Positions 6,155 to 16,783 of a stretch of 37,836 nt of DNA are shown piece after piece. A program made the position numbers and the translations under genes. Numbering within the stretch: position 1 is the stretch's first letter; the number at the start of each line of letters is the position of its first letter. Origin of the DNA: Phycisphaerae bacterium (GTDB lineage Bacteria; Planctomycetota; Phycisphaerae; UBA1845); NCBI GenBank assembly GCA_029260215.1, contig JAJDDQ010000009.1, positions 1 through 37,836 on the forward strand. The letters are read 5' to 3'. Under the pieces are notes generated by a model that saw only the letters and a program-made list of their open reading frames with translations, did not search any database and was not told where the DNA came from.

Positions 6155-7000
6155 TCAGACGGTGACGCTTGGTTGGTGGGGGGAGATCAGGCCGTCGAAC
6201 GTTGAGCTGGCGGATGCGTAGCGTTTTTTGCCTATGCGACCGGCCTGGAAGGCGAGGCGGCCTGCGAGGATCGCGTGATTCATGGCGGCGGCCATCCGGA
6301 TCGGGTCGCGGGCGCCGGCGATGCCGGTGTTCAGGAGGACGCCGTCGGCTCCCAACTCCATCGCGATTGTGACGTCTGAGGCTGACCCGACTCCGGCATC
6401 GACGATGACGGGGTAGTCCGCGTCGCCGTCCTTGAGGTACTCGATGCAGAGGCGGATGCTGTTGTGGTTCAGGATGCCCAGGCCTGTGCCGATGGGGGCG
6501 CCGAGCGGCATGACGCTCGTGGCACCGGCGTCCTTCAATCGTTTGCAGAGGATGGGGTCGTCGTTGGTGTAAACGAGTACGTCGAAGCCGAGGTCGACCA
6601 ATTCGGTTGTCGCTTCCAGTGTGCCGATCGGATCGGGCAGCAGGGTTTTTTTGTCGGCCAACACTTCCAGCTTGACCCATTTCGCACCGGGGTTTCCGAG
6701 TCCTTCGAGAAGCTCGCGCGACAGCCTGGCTGAGCGCACGGCGTCTTTGGCGGTGAAGCAGCCGGCGGTGTTGGGCAGGATGGTGTAGCGCTGGGGGTCG
6801 AGGTGTTCGATGATGTTGCCCTGTTTGGGGCGGCCGTCGGAATCGAGTACGTCGCGTCGTACGGCTACGGTGACGACTTCGCATGCGGAGGCTTCCAGCG
6901 CGGCGGACATCTGATCGAAGTCGGCGTATTTGCCTGTGCCCACGAAGAGCCGCGAGGTAAACTCGAAACCGCTGATGCGATATGTGTCTTGTTCGATCAT
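6155..7000 (-). CDS. thiG: Thiazole synthase ThiG
   Basis: ThiG condenses deoxyxylulose 5-phosphate, dehydroglycine/glycine imine and ThiS thiocarboxylate to make the thiazole phosphate part of thiamine; it is a cytoplasmic TIM barrel. The 281-residue product shows [10 protein letters not shown] at the N-terminus, [20 protein letters not shown] with the Schiff-base lysine (Lys110), [22 protein letters not shown] and [12 protein letters not shown], all family hallmarks. The final 20 residues run past the usual barrel. It follows thiS by 31 bases in one unit and is therefore probably transcribed with it. ThiH/ThiO, ThiF and ThiE are not in this window. Confidence 0.97.
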
Positions 7001-7031
7001 CTTTTCATTCCGCCTTTGCCTGCTGATTTCG

Positions 7032-7232
7032 TCAACCGCCGCCGACGAGTGTAACGATTTCCACTGCGTCGCCGTTGTTTAACGCGGCTGACTCGAATGT
7101 TGCGCGCGGCACCAACTCTTCGTTGACCTCGACAGCTACGCGCACGGGCAGCAGTTCGAACCGCCGCAGCAGGTCCGCGACGGTGTCCGCACCGGTGATT
7201 TCCTGTTCCTTGCCGTTGATGGTCAGCCGCAT
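7032..7232 (-). CDS. thiS: Sulfur carrier protein ThiS
   Basis: The 66-residue beta-grasp protein ends in VTLVGGG, carrying the C-terminal Gly-Gly that is adenylated and thiocarboxylated to donate sulfur to ThiG. It begins [10 protein letters not shown] and has the conserved [12 protein letters not shown] and [10 protein letters not shown] segments. Its length is typical (about 65). It precedes thiG on the same strand. A TATAAT -10 box is close upstream, leaving a leader of about 20 bases with no room for a TPP riboswitch. Confidence 0.95.
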
Positions 7233-7259
7233 GATTCGGATCCCGCTTTCGTTGGGCGG

Positions 7260-7288
7260 ATTATAGAAGTGGCTTCGGGTCGCAGCAA
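7260..7288 (-). promoter_or_regulatory. Candidate thiSG promoter
   Basis: Minus strand: TTGCTG, 17 bases, TATAAT (perfect -10). The predicted start is near 7253, about 20 bases before the thiS ATG. The leader is too short for a TPP riboswitch, and none of the conserved riboswitch segments is present in 7233-7467. Confidence 0.5.
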
Positions 7289-7350
7289 ATGGGGCGGTGG
7301 GGAGATGTTCGCCGTCTCGGGCGTTTTTATCTGAATCGGGAAAGTGCGCT

Positions 7351-7379
7351 TTTTCAATGGCGCGGGATTGGGGTATGCT
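7351..7379 (+). promoter_or_regulatory. Candidate nuoD promoter
   Basis: TTTTCA, 17 bases, TATGCT. Each box matches consensus at 4/6. It lies about 90 bases before the chosen nuoD start, in the region shared with the divergent thiS promoter. Confidence 0.3.
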
Positions 7380-7467
7380 GGCTGGCTGAGTTGTGGGCGT
7401 GCGTTGGCGTTGGCTGGTGACGGATGCGGGCTTAATGCTTCATGGGCGGCGACTCGAAGGCGAGATG

Positions 7468-8718
7468 ATGGAAACGCAACAAATTGAACCAACGGTTTTG
7501 ACGCAGGACGAGCCGGGCGGCGATCTTTGGACGCTGAACTTCGGGCCTCAGCATCCGGCGACGCACACGACGCTGCGACTTGTTCTGGAGCTTGACGGCG
7601 AGCGGGTGATCGCGTGTACGCCGCACATCGGCTACCTGCACAGCGGGTTTGAGAAGCTCGGCGAGCATTTGGATTACAACCAATACGTGGTCGTCACCGA
7701 TCGGATGAATTACATCTCTCCGATGGCGAACAACATCGCTTGGCATCATGCGTGCGAGGTGTTGTTCGGTATCGAGATCACGCCGCGTTGCAAGGTCTTG
7801 CGGACGATCATCGCGGAGCTGGCTCGGATACAGGATCACCTACTGTGCGTGGGGACGGCTGCGCTGGACCTCGGAGCGTTCACCGCGTTCTTGTACGGCT
7901 TTGCCGAGCGCGAGGAAATCTACGATCTGTTCGAGGATATTTGCGGGGCGCGATTCACGACGAGCTACACGCGCGTCGGGGGTTTGATGCAGGACATGCC
8001 CGACGATTGGCCTGCGAAAGTGAAGACGTTTTGCAGAAAGCTTCCCAAGACTTTCGAGGACATGGTTTCGCTGCTGAATCGCAATCGCATTTTCGTGGAG
8101 CGGACGCGCGGTGTTGGTTATATCGATCATGACGACGCGATCAACTGGGGCTTGACGGGTCCGCTGGCTCGGGCGAGCGGCGTGCGGCGCGACTTGCGCA
8201 AGGACGAGCCTTATCTGTGTTACGCCAATGACTGGAACGGTCAGGGTGCGAGCGCGGTCACGTTCAAGGTGCCGATCGCGACTGGCGGTGATGTCTATTC
8301 GCGTTACCTGCTGCGTCTCGAGGAGATGCGTCAGTCGTTGCACATTATCGATCAGCTTATCGACAGCATCCCGGCAGGCCCGATCAACGTGTTGGCGGAC
8401 GACAAGCAAACGCTGCCTGACAAGGGCGAAGTGTATTTCAGTATCGAGGGGCTGATTCATCACTTCGAGCAGGTGATGACCAACCGAGGCCACACACCGC
8501 CGGTGGGTGAAGCCTACGGTGCCAACGAAACCGCCAACGGTGAATTGGGCTTTTATCTGTGCAGCCAGGGCGACCGCTATCCGTACCGGGCGCGGTGCAG
8601 GCCGCCGAGCTTCATCAATTATCAATGCTTCCCGAAGCTGGTTGTGGGTCACCAGATCAGCGACGCGGTGGCGATTCTCGGCAGCCTGAATATCATCGCG
8701 GCGGAGTTGGATCGGTAG
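7468..8718 (+). CDS. nuoD: NADH-quinone oxidoreductase subunit D
   Basis: NuoD is the 49-kDa subunit of the Complex I peripheral arm and helps form the quinone site with NuoB. The 416-residue product has the canonical LNFGPQHPATH at residues about 25-35, GYLHSGFEKLGE, YVVVTDRMNY, GLTGPLARASG and the C-terminal DxxAILGSLNIIAAELDR ending. Its length (about 400) fits. ATG 7468 is seven bases after GAAGG; the adjacent ATG 7465 is too near the SD, and the longer frame from 7393 lacks conservation. It starts a plus-strand nuo run that continues with nuoE and, after three foreign genes, nuoF. nuoA-C do not precede it, so the complex's genes are dispersed. Confidence 0.95.
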   Translation: METQQIEPTVLTQDEPGGDLWTLNFGPQHPATHTTLRLVLELDGERVIACTPHIGYLHSGFEKLGEHLDYNQYVVVTDRMNYISPMANNIAWHHACEVLFGIEITPRCKVLRTIIAELARIQDHLLCVGTAALDLGAFTAFLYGFAEREEIYDLFEDICGARFTTSYTRVGGLMQDMPDDWPAKVKTFCRKLPKTFEDMVSLLNRNRIFVERTRGVGYIDHDDAINWGLTGPLARASGVRRDLRKDEPYLCYANDWNGQGASAVTFKVPIATGGDVYSRYLLRLEEMRQSLHIIDQLIDSIPAGPINVLADDKQTLPDKGEVYFSIEGLIHHFEQVMTNRGHTPPVGEAYGANETANGELGFYLCSQGDRYPYRARCRPPSFINYQCFPKLVVGHQISDAVAILGSLNIIAAELDR

Positions 8719-8719
8719 G

Positions 8720-8860
8720 ATGAAAACGAATCGAGCTACGGTGAACAGTGGGCCGGATGATCGAGCGCAGTGTCTCGATGGAGTCACATTCAGGCCATCG
8801 TGGCCCGATCCATATTCCGTACTTCAGAGTCTCGTATACGTTGCGACGTTGATTCGGTAA
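8720..8860 (+). CDS. Possible 46-residue small ORF between nuoD and nuoE
   Basis: An ATG one base after the nuoD stop opens a 46-codon frame that ends 16 bases before nuoE. It begins MKTNRATVNSGPDDRAQ and ends SLVYVATLIR. The closeness to the nuoD stop suggests coupling. No domain, membrane helix or signal peptide is clear, and the frame may be chance. Confidence 0.25.
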   Translation: MKTNRATVNSGPDDRAQCLDGVTFRPSWPDPYSVLQSLVYVATLIR

Positions 8861-8876
8861 TTGGGACTGGTGAATC

Positions 8877-9521
8877 ATGGCTTGGAAAACACTCGATCGG
8901 ACCGAACCTGTTTACGACAAGGACGCGCCGGTTGTTCTTTCGGAGGCGGTGCGGCGGAAAATTGAATCGTACTTTCCGCGCTACGAGACCAAGCGAGCGG
9001 TTCTTCTGCCTGCGCTGCACGTCGTGCAGGAATCGCTGGGACACGTTTCGTGGAAAGCGATGGCTGAGGTGGCGGAAATTCTGGAGATTCCGCCCTCCGA
9101 CGTTCTGGATACGATATCGTTTTACACGCATTTCTGGACCAAGCCGAAGGGCCGCAAGGTTATTACGGTGTGCCGCAGCATCAGTTGCGAGTTGATGGGC
9201 GGGCGCGAGATGCTCGATGCTGTCAAGGCCAAACTCGGCATCGGGGAACACGAAACGACACCCGACGGTGAATACAGTCTGGTGACCGAAGAGTGCCTGG
9301 CGGGTTGCGATCACGCTCCGTGCATGTTGATCAACGAGCGCTTGCACAAGAATGTGCGTCTCGAAGATGTCGAGAAGATACTGGCTGACCTTGAGAACGA
9401 TCGGATCGACGCACAGCGGAGCGATCTGTACGACGCGCCCGACGAGCCGGAGGCCGGTCAGTCTGGCGATGACGCCGCCGACGCCACATCGGACGTGGCT
9501 GAGATGAAGGCGGCTGATTGA
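8877..9521 (+). CDS. nuoE: NADH-quinone oxidoreductase subunit E
   Basis: NuoE is the 24-kDa thioredoxin-fold subunit carrying the N1a [2Fe-2S] cluster of the NADH module. The 214-residue product has the four ligand cysteines: Cys99 and Cys104 (VCRSISCELMGG), and Cys140 and Cys144 (EECLAGCDHAPC). The helical N-terminal part shows the usual KRAVLLPALHVVQE and VAEILEIPPSDV segments. The last 40 residues are an acidic, Ala/Asp-rich tail not needed for the fold. It partners with NuoF, whose gene lies 4 kb downstream instead of adjacent. Confidence 0.95.
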   Translation: MAWKTLDRTEPVYDKDAPVVLSEAVRRKIESYFPRYETKRAVLLPALHVVQESLGHVSWKAMAEVAEILEIPPSDVLDTISFYTHFWTKPKGRKVITVCRSISCELMGGREMLDAVKAKLGIGEHETTPDGEYSLVTEECLAGCDHAPCMLINERLHKNVRLEDVEKILADLENDRIDAQRSDLYDAPDEPEAGQSGDDAADATSDVAEMKAAD

Positions 9522-9569
9522 TCGTGGTCGGACGGATGACGGGCTGCTGAAGCAGTGTGGCTTGGGTCT

Positions 9570-9600
9570 GCACCGGTTGCAAACCGGTGCCGCACGTGAT
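9570..9600. repeat. Dispersed 31-bp palindromic repeat, copy 2
   Basis: GCACCGGTTGCAAACCGGTG forms an 8-bp stem with a three-base loop, followed by a CGCACGTGAT tail. Copy 1 is at 2510-2540. It sits between nuoE and the first inserted gene and could end or attenuate nuo transcription. Confidence 0.65.
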
Positions 9601-9635
9601 ATCGAAATCACACCCCTCGATTTTTTCGGTGAGCG

Positions 9636-10886
9636 ATGCAGGCCGACCTCAATTCCGCGGGCGAGAAGACGAATCATACAGGTACGCCCACGCCCACATG
9701 GCAGGCGCACGTTGTCGGCCTGTTTCTGATTTACGTCGTGAGCTTGGCAGCGCTGTCCAGCGATGCACACATCTGGCAACCTGCGCGACTTCTCTCGCCG
9801 GATAAGAATGCGAACGTGGCTGAGGGGTTGCGACTTTACGCCACCGGCGACGTTGCGCTCAGTGATCGTCTTTGGGATACGGCTGTTATCGATGGTCGCG
9901 TGGTCAACATTTTTCCGCCGCTGGTCACGATGGTTGCGTACGTGGCAGCCTGGGCGGGGTTCGAGGGGTTGCCGTTTACATGGATTGCGTTGTTGTTCGT
10001 GGTGCCGTTGCCGGGGGTGGTCTATGCGCTCTTTGCGGTATTGACGCGGCGGGTCACGTCGGCGTGTTTGCTTACGTTGGCCTTTGTGCTGGGAACGTCG
10101 GAGTTCATGATTTTACAGCGTTCGCTACAGGGCGGCGGTGTGTATCAGCTTAACCACGCCGTATCGCAACTGGGGTTGGCGATTTTTCTTGTGGATTATT
10201 TTTCGCGTCGTCGGTGGTGGCTTGGCGGAATCGGTTTCGCGATCATGACAGCGTCGCGGCTTACGATGGGTGTGTATGCGCTGCCCTACCTGTGGGCGTT
10301 GTTTCGTCGTTCGGATCGACGGGCCAACCGCTGGTGCAGCCTCGCGATGGTCGTCGGGACGGTCGCGGTTTTGGGTGCGTTCAATTGGGCGCGGACCGGT
10401 TCTGTGTGGGACGCGGGGTATCGTCAGATTTACGCGAATCGCGACACCGCGTCGGATCGGCTTGCGCGGGACGGGGGCGAGGCGCTTTTCGCGTTGCGTC
10501 ATGTCCCGCGAAACCTCTATTGGATGAACGTCGGCCCGCCGGATTTTCAAACGAAATCCGGGCGGACGCGATGGGTCTTGCCGACGGAATCGGTGGGTAT
10601 CTGGTGGACATCGCCGATTCTGCTTCTGCTTTTTCCCGAGGTCCGGCGGATTGTCCGCGACCGGGATCGTGCCACAATGTTGATCGCAGCCGGTGTGGTT
10701 TTTGGGATTTTGATGTGTTACCACACGACCGGCTGGGCACAGCGCGGGTATAATCGGTTTTCGCTCGATTTCCTTCTGGTGTTGTTGGCGTTGATCGCAC
10801 CGCGTCTGGAATTGTGGGCGGCCCGCGTATTCGCAGCCGTGTGTGCCTTGTGGAGCATTGTCTATTTCGTGTGGATCATTGAATGA
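9636..10886 (+). CDS. GT-C-like polytopic membrane protein (inserted copy 1)
   Basis: The 416-residue product has about nine to ten hydrophobic segments. After the first membrane segment comes a loop of the kind seen in lipid-linked GT-C/PMT-type glycosyltransferases: NVAEGLRLYATGDVAL, then WDTAVIDGRVVNIFPP. LPLPGVVYALF and VLGTSEF follow, and near the C-terminus come NLYWMNVGP and AQRGYNRFSLDF. The same blocks recur in the product at 12282-13502, so the two are paralogues. By analogy it would move sugar from a polyprenyl carrier to an envelope acceptor, but no exact family is assigned. Start ATG 9636 has a weak GGTGAG upstream. It sits in the nuo run after nuoE. Confidence 0.75.
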   Translation: MQADLNSAGEKTNHTGTPTPTWQAHVVGLFLIYVVSLAALSSDAHIWQPARLLSPDKNANVAEGLRLYATGDVALSDRLWDTAVIDGRVVNIFPPLVTMVAYVAAWAGFEGLPFTWIALLFVVPLPGVVYALFAVLTRRVTSACLLTLAFVLGTSEFMILQRSLQGGGVYQLNHAVSQLGLAIFLVDYFSRRRWWLGGIGFAIMTASRLTMGVYALPYLWALFRRSDRRANRWCSLAMVVGTVAVLGAFNWARTGSVWDAGYRQIYANRDTASDRLARDGGEALFALRHVPRNLYWMNVGPPDFQTKSGRTRWVLPTESVGIWWTSPILLLLFPEVRRIVRDRDRATMLIAAGVVFGILMCYHTTGWAQRGYNRFSLDFLLVLLALIAPRLELWAARVFAAVCALWSIVYFVWIIE

Positions 10887-10962
10887 CTGGTGTGAATAGG
10901 AATTTTTGTTTCGGGCTGCATGCGCGGGGAATTGGACTTGTCTGTTCGGCGGAAATTTGCGT

Positions 10963-12159
10963 ATGACGCCCACGAAAAAACGTTCGCGCGTGCGAAGGGT
11001 GCTCGACCGCGCAATGCTTATGTCTGCCGGTGTTTTTGTCGCACTTGTTCTCGGCGAAATCGTCGTGCGCATCGGAGGATTCGGACCGGATGTCCACCCT
11101 GTTTTCATCGGCCTTTTTCAACTTTCGGACGACCCACTCCTGCGATACACGCTTGTTCCGAATGCCGAATACGATCGCGCGTACATCAACACGCACGGTT
11201 TTCGCGGGTCTGATGTTTCGCGTCGCAAGAGTTCCGATACATTTCGAATCGTATGCATCGGCGACTCCATCTGTTTCGGATACGCCGTGGGGCAGCGGGA
11301 GACTTTTTCCGCACGGCTTGAGCAAGGTCTCAATGCCGGACCGGCCTCGCAGGGACGCCGTTTCGAGGTGCTCAACTTCGGCGTCACGGGCTACAATATT
11401 GTTCAGATCGCGGAGAATCTACGCGAGCGGGTTGTTGATTTCGACCCCGATCTGATTGTCTATGCCTATTGTCTGAACGATCCGCAGGACTTCAGCCACG
11501 AGTTTGATGCGCTCAGCATCAAGCTTAACAAAGCCGAAATGCGATTCCGGGAACACATGGTCAGTCGTGCCCGGCGGCTGTCATTGCGATCCCGGTTGTA
11601 TGCGCTCGCACGTTTCGCGGTGGAATCGAGCACGCCGGAGGGAATGACCCTTCGCGGCTTGCGCAAAGACCCGCAGTTTCAAAACCTGCATCGTGGGACG
11701 CACGCTGAGTATTTCACCCGGCTTCATCGCGAACCGCCGGGCCTGACGCGCCTGGAAGATGGGCTGGCTGCCATTGGTCGCATCGCTCGTGAACAAGAAA
11801 TACCTGCCAGCCTCGCACTTTTTCCCCTGCTCGTCGATCCGGAAAGCTATCCGTTCCGCGAGGTGCATGAGCAGGTTCTCGCGCTTGCCGAGAAGGAGAA
11901 TCTTCACCCCATCGATCTGACGGATTCTTTTTTGTCTTTCAAGGGTGACGCATTTTGGTCTTTGACGGTTGATCAGCTTCACCCCTCAGCCGCCGGCCAT
12001 ACTGTCGCCGCTATTGCGATTTTGCGCGGACTAATGTCCCACGGACTGCTGGACGTGGCCGATGATACCTTGGCACGACTCTCCTCTGCTCCCGAGCCTG
12101 TAGGCTCGATCGCACGGCACTTGGCGGCGGAGGTTGACGATAGCTCAATCGTGCGATGA
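10963..12159 (+). CDS. Membrane-anchored SGNH/GDSL hydrolase-like protein
   Basis: The 398-residue product has a basic start, one hydrophobic segment (about 17-36, signal anchor) and a domain with all four SGNH blocks: GDS (Ser102, IGDSICFG), the Gly block (FGVTGYN, Gly143), the Asn block (YCLNDP, Asn172), and D337-x-x-H340 (DQLHPSAAGH). Such enzymes remove or transfer acyl groups; AlgJ/AlgX-type and acetylxylan-esterase-type members act on extracellular glycans. It lies between two paralogous GT-C-like proteins, so an envelope-polysaccharide acyl-modification role is inferred. Start 10963 is chosen so that the basic n-region precedes the helix; a start at 10906 would add 19 residues. Confidence 0.8.
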   Translation: MTPTKKRSRVRRVLDRAMLMSAGVFVALVLGEIVVRIGGFGPDVHPVFIGLFQLSDDPLLRYTLVPNAEYDRAYINTHGFRGSDVSRRKSSDTFRIVCIGDSICFGYAVGQRETFSARLEQGLNAGPASQGRRFEVLNFGVTGYNIVQIAENLRERVVDFDPDLIVYAYCLNDPQDFSHEFDALSIKLNKAEMRFREHMVSRARRLSLRSRLYALARFAVESSTPEGMTLRGLRKDPQFQNLHRGTHAEYFTRLHREPPGLTRLEDGLAAIGRIAREQEIPASLALFPLLVDPESYPFREVHEQVLALAEKENLHPIDLTDSFLSFKGDAFWSLTVDQLHPSAAGHTVAAIAILRGLMSHGLLDVADDTLARLSSAPEPVGSIARHLAAEVDDSSIVR

Positions 12160-12281
12160 AAGTGATGACAGGTTGCGATACAATTCGCGGCGGACCGCTG
12201 AAAGCGCTGCCATCGCCGAGACGTCTCGCTCTGAAGCGTTTTTCGATATCCAACACTCTATGCGGCTGAACGTTCACGACG

Positions 12282-13502
12282 ATGGAATCACTCGCGAAAA
12301 CACTTCGCAAACCGATACGCCTCAGCGACGGCACGCGCCGGCATTTGCGTAACCTTCTTATCTTGTATGTGTTGTTCTTTGTGCTCGCTCCTCGCCCGCT
12401 GTGGCGACCGGGGGCGCTCCTCGTGCCGAGTGAAAATCTCAACGTGGCTGAGGCGGAGGCTTGGCTTGACGGCACTATGGCTGTCCGCGACATGCAGTTG
12501 GACGCGGCTGTGCATGAGGGGCAGCTTTACAATGTCTTTCCGCCGTTTGTGTCCATCCTCTCGGTTCCCGTGTTGTTGGTTCAACCGGGCGGTTTTCCCT
12601 ACACGCTGCTCTCGTTGTTGTTTGTGTTGCCATTGCCGGGCTTGACGTATGCACTGTTTCTTCGTCGGTGCGAGAGTTCGTTCGCAGCGCTTCTGATGGC
12701 CGGCTTGTTTGTGCTGGGGACTTCGGTTCTGCCCGTCGCGTCGAAATCGGTGGCGACCGGCAATGTTTGCCGCGTCAACAACACCGTGACCCAGATCGGC
12801 CTGCTGATCTTGTTGTTGGATTTTTATGGACGACGGCGGTGGTGGGTCGGCGGGCTGGGGCTGATGGTTTGTGGCTGGGCGCGTTGGCACATGCTGGTCT
12901 ACGCGGTTCCGTACATTTGGGGGCTGATTCAAAAAGCGGATCGGCGAAATCTCCGAAATGGGATTATTCTGACGGCTGTGCTTTTTGCGTGCCCGCTGGT
13001 GTTGAACATGGCCAAGTTCGGCCATCCGCTGGATACCGGGTACGCGTACATTTACAATCAGAGGGCGGGGACGCTGGCGCAGCGGGCGTGGGAGCATGGC
13101 GTGTTTTCGCCGGTCTACGTGCCGCAAAACCTCTATTGGATGTTCCTGGGCCTGCCGAACATTTTCGTACGCGGCGGGCGATGGTTCTGGATGCACAACT
13201 CCCAGTGCAGCGGGATTTTGTGGACCACGCCGCTTCTGATCTATGCTGCGTTCGATTTCCGCAGGCTGGTGCGCCTGGCGGAGAACCGGGCGCTCATGGC
13301 GGCGATTGGTGTTGTGTTTGCGGTGACAATGCTTTACCACAATAATGGCTATGGTCAGCGCGGGTTCAACCGATTTTCGTTGGACTTCGTGCTTCCGCTG
13401 CTGGTGATGATCGCACCGCAGGTGTTGCGCGGGCGTCGTCGATACCTGACGCCCCTGCTCGCCGTGTGGAGCGTGGTTTACTTTGGCCTCATTTTGTATT
13501 GA
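12282..13502 (+). CDS. GT-C-like polytopic membrane protein (inserted copy 2)
   Basis: This is a paralogue of the protein at 9636-10886. The 406-residue product shares, in order: NLNVAEAEAWLDG, LDAAVHEGQLYNVFPP, LPLPGLTYALF, VLGTS, VNNTVTQIG, RRRWWVGGLG, PQNLYWM and GQRGFNRFSLDF. The loop plus FPP pattern is typical of PMT/GT39-like membrane glycosyltransferases. About nine to ten hydrophobic segments are seen. No clear SD precedes ATG 12282, so the start is uncertain. It is followed after 30 bases by nuoF, making the two likely co-transcribed. Substrate and acceptor are unknown. Confidence 0.75.
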   Translation: MESLAKTLRKPIRLSDGTRRHLRNLLILYVLFFVLAPRPLWRPGALLVPSENLNVAEAEAWLDGTMAVRDMQLDAAVHEGQLYNVFPPFVSILSVPVLLVQPGGFPYTLLSLLFVLPLPGLTYALFLRRCESSFAALLMAGLFVLGTSVLPVASKSVATGNVCRVNNTVTQIGLLILLLDFYGRRRWWVGGLGLMVCGWARWHMLVYAVPYIWGLIQKADRRNLRNGIILTAVLFACPLVLNMAKFGHPLDTGYAYIYNQRAGTLAQRAWEHGVFSPVYVPQNLYWMFLGLPNIFVRGGRWFWMHNSQCSGILWTTPLLIYAAFDFRRLVRLAENRALMAAIGVVFAVTMLYHNNGYGQRGFNRFSLDFVLPLLVMIAPQVLRGRRRYLTPLLAVWSVVYFGLILY

Positions 13503-13532
13503 CTCGGGTTCGCCGGGTCGTGGACGGTACGC

Positions 13533-14843
13533 ATGGGTAAGTATGAACCGGTTCTGTTGCGAAGCGTCGGAGTGGCTGACTCGCGTACGCTGGCTGTCTA
13601 TCAATCTCGCGGCGGGTACGCGGGTGCGAGAAAAGCGCTTACGCAGATGTCGTCCGAGGAAGTGATCGAGGAAGTCAAGCGTGCGAACCTTCGCGGGCGT
13701 GGCGGGGCGGGCTTTCCCGCCGGGGTGAAGTGGACGTTCCTGCCCAAAGATCGCACGCGTACCTACCTGTGCGTCAACGGCGACGAATCCGAGCCGCCGA
13801 CGTTCAGCAACCGCGTGCTCATGGAGCACGACCCGCACCAGCTTATCGAGGGCGTTATCATCGCGGGCTACGCTACCAAAGCGCAGGTGGCGTATATCTA
13901 CCTGCGCGTGGAGTTTCACGAACAGTTTCACCACATGCAGACGGCTGTCGATGAAGCCTACGCGGCTGGCATATTGGGGAAAAACATTTTCGGAAGCGGT
14001 TACGATCTTGACGTCTACGTGCATCGCGGCGCGGGGGCGTATGTCTGTGGCGAGGAGACGGGGCTGATCGAGTCGCTGGAGGGCAAACGCGGTTGGCCTC
14101 GGATCAAACCGCCGTTTCCCGCCATCGAAGGCTTGTTTCGCAAACCGACCGTCGTCAACAACGTCGAAACGCTGTGCAACCTTCCGCACATCATCGAGCG
14201 CGGGGCGGACTGGTTTCTGGGAGTCGGCCCACAGGGTAGCAGCGGCCCCAAGCTCTTTTGCGTCAGCGGTCCGGTGAAGCGTCCCGGTTGTTACGAATCG
14301 CCGATGGACATCACCTGCGAAGAACTGATTATGTCCGACAAGTTTGGCCGGGGCATGACCGACGGCGCGAAAGTGAAGGCGGTCTTTCCGGGCGGAATCA
14401 GCATGGGCGTGCTGTCGGCCGACGAGTTGGGCATGAAAATGGATTTCGACGATCCGCGCAACTTCGGCCTGCTCGGGCTGGGGACGGCGGCGGCGGTCGT
14501 GGTCAACACCGACACGGATATTCGCGAGGTGCTGCGGAATCTGGCCCGTTTTTACGCCCTCGAATCCTGCGGCCAGTGTACGCAATGCAGAATGGGCACC
14601 AGCTGGATGTACCGCATTGCCCAGCGCATCGCGCTCGGTGCGGGACGTTTGGAAGACCTCGACTTGTTCGAGGAAGTTTCGGGACGCATGGGCATGATGC
14701 CGGGCTTGAGCATCTGCGGACTGCCCGACGGTGCGACGTTTCCGCTTCGCGGTTTGATCCAAAAATTCCGTGGAGAATTCGAAGAGCACATTCGCAACCA
14801 AGCCCCCGGCAGGGCGGACGAGTTGCTTACTGTCTTGAATTGA
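13533..14843 (+). CDS. nuoF: NADH-quinone oxidoreductase subunit F
   Basis: NuoF oxidises NADH with FMN and passes electrons through the N3 [4Fe-4S] cluster. The 436-residue product has the FMN/NADH-site glycine motif GRGGAGFPAG (55-64), CVNGDESEP, YVCGEET, and four cluster cysteines: Cys346, Cys349 and Cys352 in ESCGQCTQCRMG, and Cys395 in SICGLPDG. Its length fits the family (about 430). It starts 30 bases after the GT-C-like gene and ends nine bases before the convergent small membrane protein gene. nuoG does not follow. Cys80 and others are structural or incidental. Confidence 0.97.
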   Translation: MGKYEPVLLRSVGVADSRTLAVYQSRGGYAGARKALTQMSSEEVIEEVKRANLRGRGGAGFPAGVKWTFLPKDRTRTYLCVNGDESEPPTFSNRVLMEHDPHQLIEGVIIAGYATKAQVAYIYLRVEFHEQFHHMQTAVDEAYAAGILGKNIFGSGYDLDVYVHRGAGAYVCGEETGLIESLEGKRGWPRIKPPFPAIEGLFRKPTVVNNVETLCNLPHIIERGADWFLGVGPQGSSGPKLFCVSGPVKRPGCYESPMDITCEELIMSDKFGRGMTDGAKVKAVFPGGISMGVLSADELGMKMDFDDPRNFGLLGLGTAAAVVVNTDTDIREVLRNLARFYALESCGQCTQCRMGTSWMYRIAQRIALGAGRLEDLDLFEEVSGRMGMMPGLSICGLPDGATFPLRGLIQKFRGEFEEHIRNQAPGRADELLTVLN

Positions 14844-14852
14844 GTCGCGCGT

Positions 14853-15431
14853 TCAACCTCGTCGCGGGCGGACCGCTACGAGCAGGAAAAGTCCGAACGA
14901 AGCCTGAAAAACGCCGATTCGAGCGTAGAATTGGATCGGTACGTCCGGCATGCCGCCCCATTTGACTGCAGCCCCAATGCCCCCCATGCTCGCGACGGTC
15001 GAGAGCAATATCAGCAAGGCTGATTGACGCAACATCGCTCGGGCGAACCTGAATCCGATGATTCCGAACAGGCTGCCCAGACCGTTCCACGCGCCGGCAG
15101 CGTACGCGATACCCAGCCAACCCAGCAGCATGCCTGGCAGAAGATTGGCGCGCATCTTGCCTTGTGCCCTGAGATCATTGAGCACCGTGGCTTGCTCTGC
15201 GGACGCTTTCTGATTAGACGGCATGAGGGCCATCATCGCCGCAAATTCATCGATGCCCTTGACCATCAGCTTGTCCGTCAGCCAAGGCCGAGCCGTATCG
15301 TGAACCCAATACGACCAACCGCCCGCGAACAGAAGGCTGGCGAACGCGATGATGCGAAGCCAATTGCGCGCACTTTTGGTCTGGGAGGCGCTGTAGATGG
15401 TAATGATCTCAATTCGACGAGCCTGTGTCAT
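14853..15431 (-). CDS. Small polytopic membrane protein of unknown function
   Basis: The 192-residue product has three or four hydrophobic segments: WLRIIAFASLLFAGGWSYWV, GMLLGWLGIAYAAGAW, SALLILLSTVASMGG and ASFGLFLLVAV. Between the first and second is a soluble stretch (WLTDKLMVKG...) with no motif I recognise. ATG 15431 has GAGGGGAAG about ten bases upstream; a longer frame to 15554 would overlap the peptidase gene. It is the last gene of a minus-strand cluster behind the M16 peptidases, about 100 bases downstream, and is convergent with nuoF. Function is unknown. Confidence 0.7.
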   Translation of the reverse strand: MTQARRIEIITIYSASQTKSARNWLRIIAFASLLFAGGWSYWVHDTARPWLTDKLMVKGIDEFAAMMALMPSNQKASAEQATVLNDLRAQGKMRANLLPGMLLGWLGIAYAAGAWNGLGSLFGIIGFRFARAMLRQSALLILLSTVASMGGIGAAVKWGGMPDVPIQFYARIGVFQASFGLFLLVAVRPRRG

Positions 15432-15532
15432 CGTCGTCGTCTTCCCCTCGAAAAATACGCAGGAATCCCGGCGGAAATTTATACACACCCTTCGCCGGTG
15501 GGTTGCGAGTCCGCCGGACGTCGCAACGCTGC

Positions 15533-16783
15533 TCAGTTCGACCCGGCGGGCCATTCCCTGGGGCCGACGCTGATGAAGAAACCGTCGGTGTCGATCGGGT
15601 ACTTCTCGTAGAACTCCGCGATGGAATCGGCTGACACCGCTTCGACGGACTCCAAGCGCTGCGCGACGGTTCGCGGTGCGCCACGGTAATCGACATCGTC
15701 CATAATCTGGACAAGGCGATGGTAGGGCGATTCGCCTTCGACCGCCAGTGTCGTACGCCTCTTGTTCTTGACCCGCTGGACCTCTTCGTCGCGTACTTTT
15801 TCCGTGCAGATGGCGTGGGCTTCTTTGCGCATCGCGTCGACCAGCTTGTTCAAACCGTCGTCGTCGGCGTCCGTCTGGGCGGACAGAATGGTCAGCCCGC
15901 AGTCGTCGAAGTCAAGACGGTAGGCGCCCGCGTGGGGGCTTAAACCGGTCTGCACGATGTTCCAGTAGAATCGCGAATTCGAGCCGCCGAGAATCGCGGT
16001 GGCTGCCTCGGCTGAGTCGTGCATCGGATCGCTGCCGCCGGGCGCGGGGAAGTTCATCGCGATGACCTGCTGGTTGAAACGCGAGACGACCTGCGAGGCT
16101 GATCCCTTGTTGATGCTGGGCGTGACGCGCTTGCGCAATTCCCCCGATGGCTTCCACGAGCCGCAGAGTTGCTCAGCTTGGCCTATGATTTGGGCGGGGT
16201 CCACGTTCCCAGCCACGATGAGGATCATGTTGTCGGGTGCGTAGCGCGATTCGAAATAGGCGTGAAGCTGATCGCGCGTCAGGTTGCCGACGGTGTCATC
16301 GTAACCAAGGACAGGCCAGCGCAGCGCGTGCCCCTCGAAGACTTTTTCGAGCACGAACTCGAATGCAACGTGTTCGAGCGAGTCCTTCGACATGGCGATT
16401 TCTTCAAGAATCACCTTCTTTTCCATGGCGAATTCCTCTTCCGGAATCGCCGGTCTCATCATGTCCGCCAGGATTTCAATCTGTGCGGATATCTGATTTT
16501 GCGGCACCCAGCCGAAGTAGAACGTGCGGTCGGCGCTGGTGAATGCGTTGTACATGCTGCCGAGATCGTCGAACGCGACGCTGATTTCATGCCAATCGCG
16601 TTTGCTCGTTCCCTTGAAACACATGTGCTCCAGAAAATGCGATACGCCGGCGAGTTCGCGCGTTTCGTCGCGGGCGCCGGTCCTCGCCAGAAATCCGGCG
16701 GCGGCGGAATTCACGCCCGGCATGGTCTCGATGACGATTCGCAGGCCGTTGTCCAATGTGTGCAGCGTGTATGGATCGCTCAC
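15533..16783 (-). CDS. M16 family zinc metallopeptidase, catalytic subunit
   Basis: The 416-residue product is a full M16B-type peptidase (PqqL/YmxG/MPP-beta-like) with the inverted zinc motif HFLEH (His49, Glu52, His53) and the distal Glu in ILEEIAM (about 128). M16 enzymes degrade unfolded or targeting peptides. The N-terminal segment LHTLDNGLRIVIE and the C-terminal half with LDFDDCGLTI are typical of the two homologous lobes. The GTG start at 16783 overlaps the upstream gene by four bases (GTGA), so translation is coupled. Its partner, the non-catalytic product at 16780-18054, probably forms a heterodimer with it. No signal peptide is seen. Confidence 0.93.
   Translation of the reverse strand: MSDPYTLHTLDNGLRIVIETMPGVNSAAAGFLARTGARDETRELAGVSHFLEHMCFKGTSKRDWHEISVAFDDLGSMYNAFTSADRTFYFGWVPQNQISAQIEILADMMRPAIPEEEFAMEKKVILEEIAMSKDSLEHVAFEFVLEKVFEGHALRWPVLGYDDTVGNLTRDQLHAYFESRYAPDNMILIVAGNVDPAQIIGQAEQLCGSWKPSGELRKRVTPSINKGSASQVVSRFNQQVIAMNFPAPGGSDPMHDSAEAATAILGGSNSRFYWNIVQTGLSPHAGAYRLDFDDCGLTILSAQTDADDDGLNKLVDAMRKEAHAICTEKVRDEEVQRVKNKRRTTLAVEGESPYHRLVQIMDDVDYRGAPRTVAQRLESVEAVSADSIAEFYEKYPIDTDGFFISVGPREWPAGSN

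Follow-up and report, generated by a model that had tools for sequence, protein, structure and literature searches.

We analyzed a 37,836-nucleotide stretch of DNA (hereafter the window) from a Phycisphaerae bacterium (Planctomycetota, UBA1845; assembly GCA_029260215.1, contig JAJDDQ010000009.1, positions 1 to 37,836) in which the nuoD-nuoE-nuoF run of the Complex I gene cluster is split by genes for two paralogous membrane proteins, here called GT1 and GT2 after their predicted glycosyltransferase (GT) fold, that flank a gene coding for an SGNH hydrolase. A preliminary description of this DNA had reported this layout, and the coordinates, the paralogy and the 30-base spacing between GT2 and nuoF were all borne out; all of the genes are on the plus strand. 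The features of the locus are as follows, with model quality given as predicted local distance difference test (pLDDT) and predicted template modelling (pTM) scores.

7393..8718, plus strand: nuoD, Complex I 49 kDa subunit (Complex1_49kDa, E=6e-102; TIGR01962, 468.6 bits, over cut-off)
8877..9521, plus strand: nuoE (2Fe-2S_thioredx, E=2.4e-43; nuoE_fam, over cut-off)
9570..9590, no strand: 21 bp palindrome in the nuoE-GT1 gap, probably like a repetitive extragenic palindrome (REP), from its pattern count in the genome
9636..10886, plus strand: GT1, first paralogue, membrane protein with predicted GT-C fold (38% identity to GT2; tree partner, the first copy of genome G029)
10963..12159 (open reading frame from TTG 10906), plus strand: SGNH/GDSL hydrolase with a hydrophobic N-terminal segment (Lipase_GDSL_2, PF13472, 54.1 bits vs cut-off 32.9; GDS, G, N and DxxH blocks)
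12282..13502, plus strand: GT2, second paralogue, adjoining nuoF, membrane protein with predicted GT-C fold (model pLDDT 95.3, pTM 0.92; GT-C structures at Z 10.8-17.9 among the matches listed)
13533..14843, plus strand: nuoF (Complex1_51K, E=7e-47; PRK13596.1, 463.6 bits, over cut-off)

The conservation of this arrangement was followed in 100 relatives searched with GT1, SGNH, nuoF and nuoE, and then in 114 genomes of the order, where the loci were read. The main clade of GT genes is carried by 34 of 51 genomes in f1, the family to which the window belongs, and by 17 genomes of a second family (f8), giving 51 carriers. A GT copy adjoins nuoE and/or nuoF in 50 of these (34/34 in f1 and 16/17 in f8), and the order nuoE-GT-nuoF is present on one contig in 43 (30 f1, 13 f8). 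The shortfalls in f1 are contig ends (G007, G036, G049) and a displaced nuoE (G016); in f8 two genomes keep nuoE-GT with nuoF elsewhere (G071, G089), one contig stops within the cluster (G501), and one genome has the GT gene elsewhere and nuoE and nuoF together (G086). Two or more GT copies follow nuoE in eleven genomes, and in three f8 loci a further copy precedes it. Counting fragments at contig ends, all 64 of the 64 GT copies at nuo are on the nuo strand, and over 46 loci the spacing between the last GT gene and the start of nuoF ranges from -14 to 258 bases, with five overlaps and two values of 0 (gene calls around the spacing, SGNH and unlinked loci follow a crude rule of length and GC content at third codon positions). 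The tight same-strand packing seen in the preliminary description is thus kept well outside the source genome. What is conserved is nuoE-GT(1-3 copies)-nuoF, to which the SGNH gene has been added in the source genome. Absence of the trio from close relatives, or its presence there at unlinked positions, had been named beforehand as evidence against a functional tie to nuo; this is what was found for the SGNH gene and not for the GT-C gene, and chance local insertion of the GT-C genes is rejected on synteny. Seventeen of the 51 f1 genomes, some of them incomplete, show no GT copy, and all 11 of them in which the two genes were read on a single contig have nuoE next to nuoF; because such genomes have nuo, the GT gene is not a core subunit of Complex I. 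As a separate observation, the assembly of G038 has an in-frame TAG that breaks its nuoF (L064).

Outside of these two families only distant homologues were observed, in ten f4 genomes, one f6 and one f7 genome (E 2e-19 to 8e-39), and in all eight of those genomes where nuoF was located the homologue is on another contig or far from nuoF. A phylum-wide sample of 391 genomes, in which at most four candidates per genome were scored and homologues may be missed, gave matches at E<=1e-10 only in G000 and G057, both of f1/f8. When 84,980 species genomes were scanned for a single peptide pattern, an approach that may likewise miss homologues, 40 loci were returned, all from planctomycetes/Phycisphaerae, and 35 of the 40 have nuoE and/or nuoF beside them. 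Within the samples searched, the GT family is restricted to this lineage.

GT1 and GT2 are true paralogues of ~410 residues with 150 of 391 aligned positions identical (E=3e-82). Among the four sequence blocks that had been described as shared, NLYWM and RFSLDF are indeed common to both, while NVFPP and LPLPG are exact in GT2 only, their GT1 counterparts being NIFPP and VPLPG. No other GT-family genes were found in the source genome. The GT tree omits the second nuo contig of G019 and also the first copy of G057, which matched poorly; in it, f1 splits from f8 with the exception of one unresolved row (G018). GT1 groups with the first of the G029 copies (Shimodaira-Hasegawa-like approximate likelihood ratio 84) and GT2 with the last (96), and therefore the duplication probably predates the split of these two genomes. 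Mapped onto a tree of nuoD-E-F from 74 genomes, the presence of GT at nuo requires 9 changes, and hence several gains and losses. Across seven close pairs, which partly share genomes and are not all independent, the ratio of nonsynonymous to synonymous change (dN/dS), slightly inflated by the use of stop-to-stop frames, is 0.09-0.36 for GT relative to 0.03-0.12 for nuoF. The GT gene is under purifying selection that is weaker than that on nuoF.

The preliminary description had also proposed that the paralogues have a GT-C fold, and structure prediction agrees. The AlphaFold2 model of GT2 was built with 49 sequences and compared using VIA-align 2. Each of the 50 matches listed is either a GT-C protein or a complex containing one, specifically of the PMT, OST, ALG, ArnT, Emb/Aft, PimE, DPY19 and PIG types. 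The best among those listed are Pmt1/2 (6p25_B, Z 17.9, root-mean-square deviation 4.8, 331 residues aligned) and ALG12 (17.9), with AftB at 15.8, ArnT at 14.9 and PimE at 10.8. Foldseek placed GT-C proteins in its top 26 matches (best E 1.8e-3), and the rest of the 50 listed look unrelated. In its predicted structure GT2 has a GT-C glycosyltransferase fold. At the sequence level, neither GT1 nor GT2 has a convincing Pfam match. The family alignment contained 50 of 62 GT sequences (60 from relatives and the two of the window). A search of PDB sequences with the GT profile returned a single match, at E 1.3. Pfam searches of 50 family members at E<=0.1 matched ten families, each in one member except EpsG, which was matched in three (best E 3.7e-4), and the ArnT-type family PMT_2 (PF13231) was matched by none of the 50 at this threshold. 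PMT_2-type sequences occur at 12 places in the source genome, 11 of them over the cut-off, and seven of the 12 supplied proteins for a profile comparison (the other five have no open frame of >350 residues). Using hhalign, the GT profile aligned with these seven at a probability of 72.8 over 293 columns; the alignment begins past the tip of the first juxtamembrane helix, and the residue discussed next therefore lies outside of it.

The GT2 model has the multi-helix transmembrane fold and the juxtamembrane helix in loop 1 (helix 53-62) that are characteristic of GT-C_A proteins. According to PMC12041299, juxtamembrane helix 1 carries an essential Asp at its tip in all GT-C_A enzymes. In the GT family this position, assigned from sequence and helix bounds and not from structural superposition, is Asn (N52) in 74 of 79 sequences and Asp in only one. 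These counts were made after removal of three distant sequences, which left 80, 79 of them with letters at loop 1. Over positions 49-52 an Asp is found in 22/80 sequences and an Asp or Glu in 51/80, at no fixed place, with neither in 29/80. Other acidic residues of loop 1 are nearly fixed, specifically E57 (78/79) and D or E at 74 (79/79), and R201, R364 and D368 are invariant wherever the position is present. Among 17 unlinked copies that were counted, P87 of loop 1 is changed to Gly in 10 and D74 to Glu in 11. The fold is thus present but the canonical Asp is absent, and therefore either E57 or D74 took over its role or the family is non-catalytic. In all, the family appears to be a GT-C-fold family with no convincing Pfam match and an unusual loop-1 site.

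In regards to the SGNH hydrolase, its proposed identity is supported by its PF13472 score and by four intact catalytic blocks, G119-D120-S121, G162, N191 and D356..H359, which we take to be blocks I (GDS), II (G), III (N) and V (DxxH), and which are also present in the L152 protein. Translation more likely begins at ATG 10963 than at TTG 10906, because a 63%-identical homologue in G014 aligns from residue 20, which is that ATG. A PDB sequence search with SGNH gave no match at E<=0.1, and its structure model, built on two sequences, has a pLDDT of 33.5. The source genome has 11 PF13472 places, nine over the cut-off. Room for an extra gene between nuoE and nuoF exists in four of 44 readable loci (the 43 intact ones and G501), namely the window, G099, G501 and G012. 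An SGNH gene lies between two GT copies in the first three, on the opposite strand in G501; the extra open frames of G012 have no Pfam match. G029, which has the same duplicated GT pair, has ~0.2 kb between the copies and no SGNH gene. In the SGNH tree G099 and G501 are sisters (100/99) and the window SGNH groups with the unlinked gene of G014 (100/99). Placing the three rows, fixed before the tree was viewed, in one clade was rejected by an approximately unbiased (AU) test (p-AU 2.5e-10), and a single ancestral SGNH at nuo is thus rejected; SGNH genes were therefore recruited to the interval between GT copies at least twice independently. A fixed three-gene module was also rejected, as among the other loci read SGNH is found between nuoE and nuoF only in G099 and G501 and the nearest relatives of the window SGNH lie elsewhere. 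The SGNH gene is not a constant member of the trio proposed as a unit, but the idea of a pairing keeps some force through these repeated arrivals. G003 separately contains three tandem SGNH genes related to that of the window (L110:3163-6781).

The GT genes are probably co-transcribed with nuoF, given their common strand, short spacing and overlaps. A scan of 7000-15600, in which 13 terminator-like matches were observed vs 11.9 expected by chance, placed none in the nuoE-GT1, GT1-SGNH, SGNH-GT2 or GT2-nuoF junctions. The core pattern of the palindrome at 9570-9590, CACCGGTTNNNAACCGGTG, has 88 copies in the genome vs 0 for a reversed control, and the CACCGGTTNNNAACCGGTG palindrome appears to represent a family of REP-like elements in this planctomycete. 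Other insertions were observed at these nuo junctions. Between nuoE and nuoF, f4 genomes with no GT gene there contain a REP-associated tyrosine transposase open reading frame (L078:2865-3398, by NCBIfam) and, judged by eye, similar ones in L085, L096 and L098, and G056 has an ArsN1-like GNAT acetyltransferase frame that scores below cut-off (L080:3441-4037). G020 has two small frames between nuoD and nuoE that are nucleotidyltransferase/toxin-antitoxin-like by eye and have no NCBIfam match (L051:527-1879), and L043 has other frames among the inserts at the nuoD-E and nuoE-F junctions. The nuoE-nuoF junction thus seems to be open to insertions.

Evidence on function comes from neighbours of relatives that are unlinked to nuo, for which Pfam was run on chosen proteins only (20 at GT loci and 10 at SGNH loci). 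A GT paralogue is directly beside an OmpH/Skp-family gene in five of 20 unlinked loci, all from f8 (L157:5699-12146, L158, L159, L161, L162), and a sixth is 1.4 kb away (L156 of G074, where the GT gene was missed by the gene caller and its place was taken from the order-wide homology search). LpxC-FabZ is close to the GT paralogue in four of these skp-type loci; Skp and LpxC members outside L157 were assigned by phmmer clustering. The nearest relative of the window SGNH (G014) lies one gene away from lpxA and shares its strand, a relative in G025 is followed by a flippase-like gene and an L,D-transpeptidase gene, and the paralogue in the source genome (on C63) is near kdsB on the opposite strand. 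The lpxA, lpxC/skp and kdsB neighbours suggest an envelope role, perhaps in lipid A/lipopolysaccharide (LPS). Downstream of an unlinked GT paralogue at one f1 locus (L140:309-4189) are a gene of LOG/MazG type and a ubiD-type decarboxylase gene, the latter a weak hint to quinone metabolism.

The reading that we favour, at a probability of roughly one half, is that the GT genes represent a lineage-specific envelope family of GT-C fold that an ancestor of these planctomycetes acquired between nuoE and nuoF, or that spread together with the Complex I cluster, and that is expressed with respiration. The GT protein would reside in the inner membrane with its loop-1 site facing the periplasm and, working like ArnT and other GT-C proteins, would bind a polyprenyl-phosphate-linked sugar or another lipid-linked glycan and transfer or handle this glycan for an envelope acceptor, for which lipid A/LPS is the best guess. 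Tandem copies may have diverged toward different donors or acceptors, and the SGNH hydrolase between them might remove or move an acyl or acetyl ester on the same glycan. The position in nuo would set expression with respiration without making GT a part of Complex I. The glycan-transfer role given to the trio in the preliminary description is putative, as the canonical catalytic Asp that such a role would call for is not conserved. Several other results also weigh against this envelope enzyme. None of the ten Pfam families matched by the 50 members is a glycosyltransferase family, and Foldseek has no match at E <1e-3 among those listed. The envelope context comes from paralogues and not from the nuo copies, for which an envelope role would be carried over, and 14 of the 20 unlinked loci have no skp neighbour. 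The linkage to nuo has been lost with the GT gene retained in G016, G071, G086 and G089. Finally, no lipid-sugar synthase or flippase gene is present in the nuoD-nuoF interval of the window, the only part of the genome searched for them.

The replacement of the helix-1-tip Asp by N52 would also be expected of a pseudo-enzyme that kept the GT-C fold and lipid pocket, lost catalysis and acts as a lipid- or glycan-binding envelope scaffold. The glycosylphosphatidylinositol (GPI) transamidase subunit PIG-U is thought to act as such a non-catalytic scaffold, and GPI transamidase chains, presumably including PIG-U, are among the listed structural matches (7w72_U, Z 12.4). However, the retention of E57, D/E74, R201, R364 and D368 looks like that of an active site, and we consider this explanation improbable. 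A further possibility is an ordinary envelope enzyme that came to lie in nuo by accident, through one ancient, vertically inherited insertion whose position has no functional meaning; it would be congruent with a GT tree that follows families f1 and f8 and with the other inserts accepted at the nuoD-E and nuoE-F junctions (L078, L085, L096, L098, L080, L043, L051). This is rather improbable given that every copy at nuo has the same strand with tight or overlapping spacing, and that GT duplication in place and SGNH presence have recurred at the same position.

A closer tie to the enzyme, with GT as an accessory or assembly factor that acts physically on Complex I or its lipid surroundings, would fit a GT gene inside nuoE-nuoF in 43 genomes and the overlap of the nuoF start in 5/46 loci. 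It is hard to reconcile with the f1 genomes that have no copy, 11 of them with nuoE and nuoF adjacent, with the existence of GT copies unlinked to nuo and with a fold that is GT-C, and we regard it as quite unlikely. A bolder version, in which a GT-C-fold protein, its catalytic Asp replaced by Asn, was rebuilt into a lineage-specific Complex I partner in Phycisphaerae that is made from the NuoF transcript and links NADH oxidation to the chemistry of lipid-linked glycans or membrane lipids, with SGNH hydrolases recurring as editing partners, is similarly a long shot. Relative to these alternatives, the lineage-specific envelope family expressed with respiration is the reading that we retain. 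A literature search that did not cover full texts found no published account of a conserved GT-C-fold gene inside a Complex I cluster. The conserved part exceeds what had been read from the window, as the Complex I clusters of both f1 and f8 contain the GT-C-fold family as a fixed element, and this points to an unexplored tie between envelope building and respiration. The pair of GT-C and SGNH proteins would provide a concrete handle on planctomycete envelope decoration and on this tie.

When compared with known systems, the GT family is like ArnT of Cupriavidus metallidurans (PDB 5f15/5ezm), a GT83 enzyme, in its predicted GT-C fold (317-322 aligned residues, Z 14.6-14.9) and in a loop 1 that ends in a Pro-Pro motif, as loop 1 of ArnT likewise has. 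It differs in its 9% identity, in having no PMT_2 Pfam match and no conserved helix-1-tip Asp, and in its length, with GT2 having 406 residues vs 537-541 for ArnT, whose residues past 452 are unaligned. Pmt1/2/4 and ALG12/ALG9 are among the best of the matches listed (Z 15.1-17.9), but they share only 9-12% identity with the family and are eukaryotic, and their DE motif, the catalytic motif of protein O-mannosyltransferases and ALG enzymes, is absent from it. The window SGNH protein resembles SGNH/GDSL acylhydrolases of PF13472 in its score and in its Ser, Gly, Asn and His blocks, and is set apart by its hydrophobic N-terminal segment. Finally, multi-component transmembrane glycosylation systems, as outlined in PMC8035078, consist of a lipid-sugar synthase, a flippase and a GT-C protein; the family described here is like them in being a small GT-C-fold protein with no Pfam domain that is predicted to act outside of the membrane, and differs from them in being embedded in nuo with an SGNH hydrolase as its neighbour.

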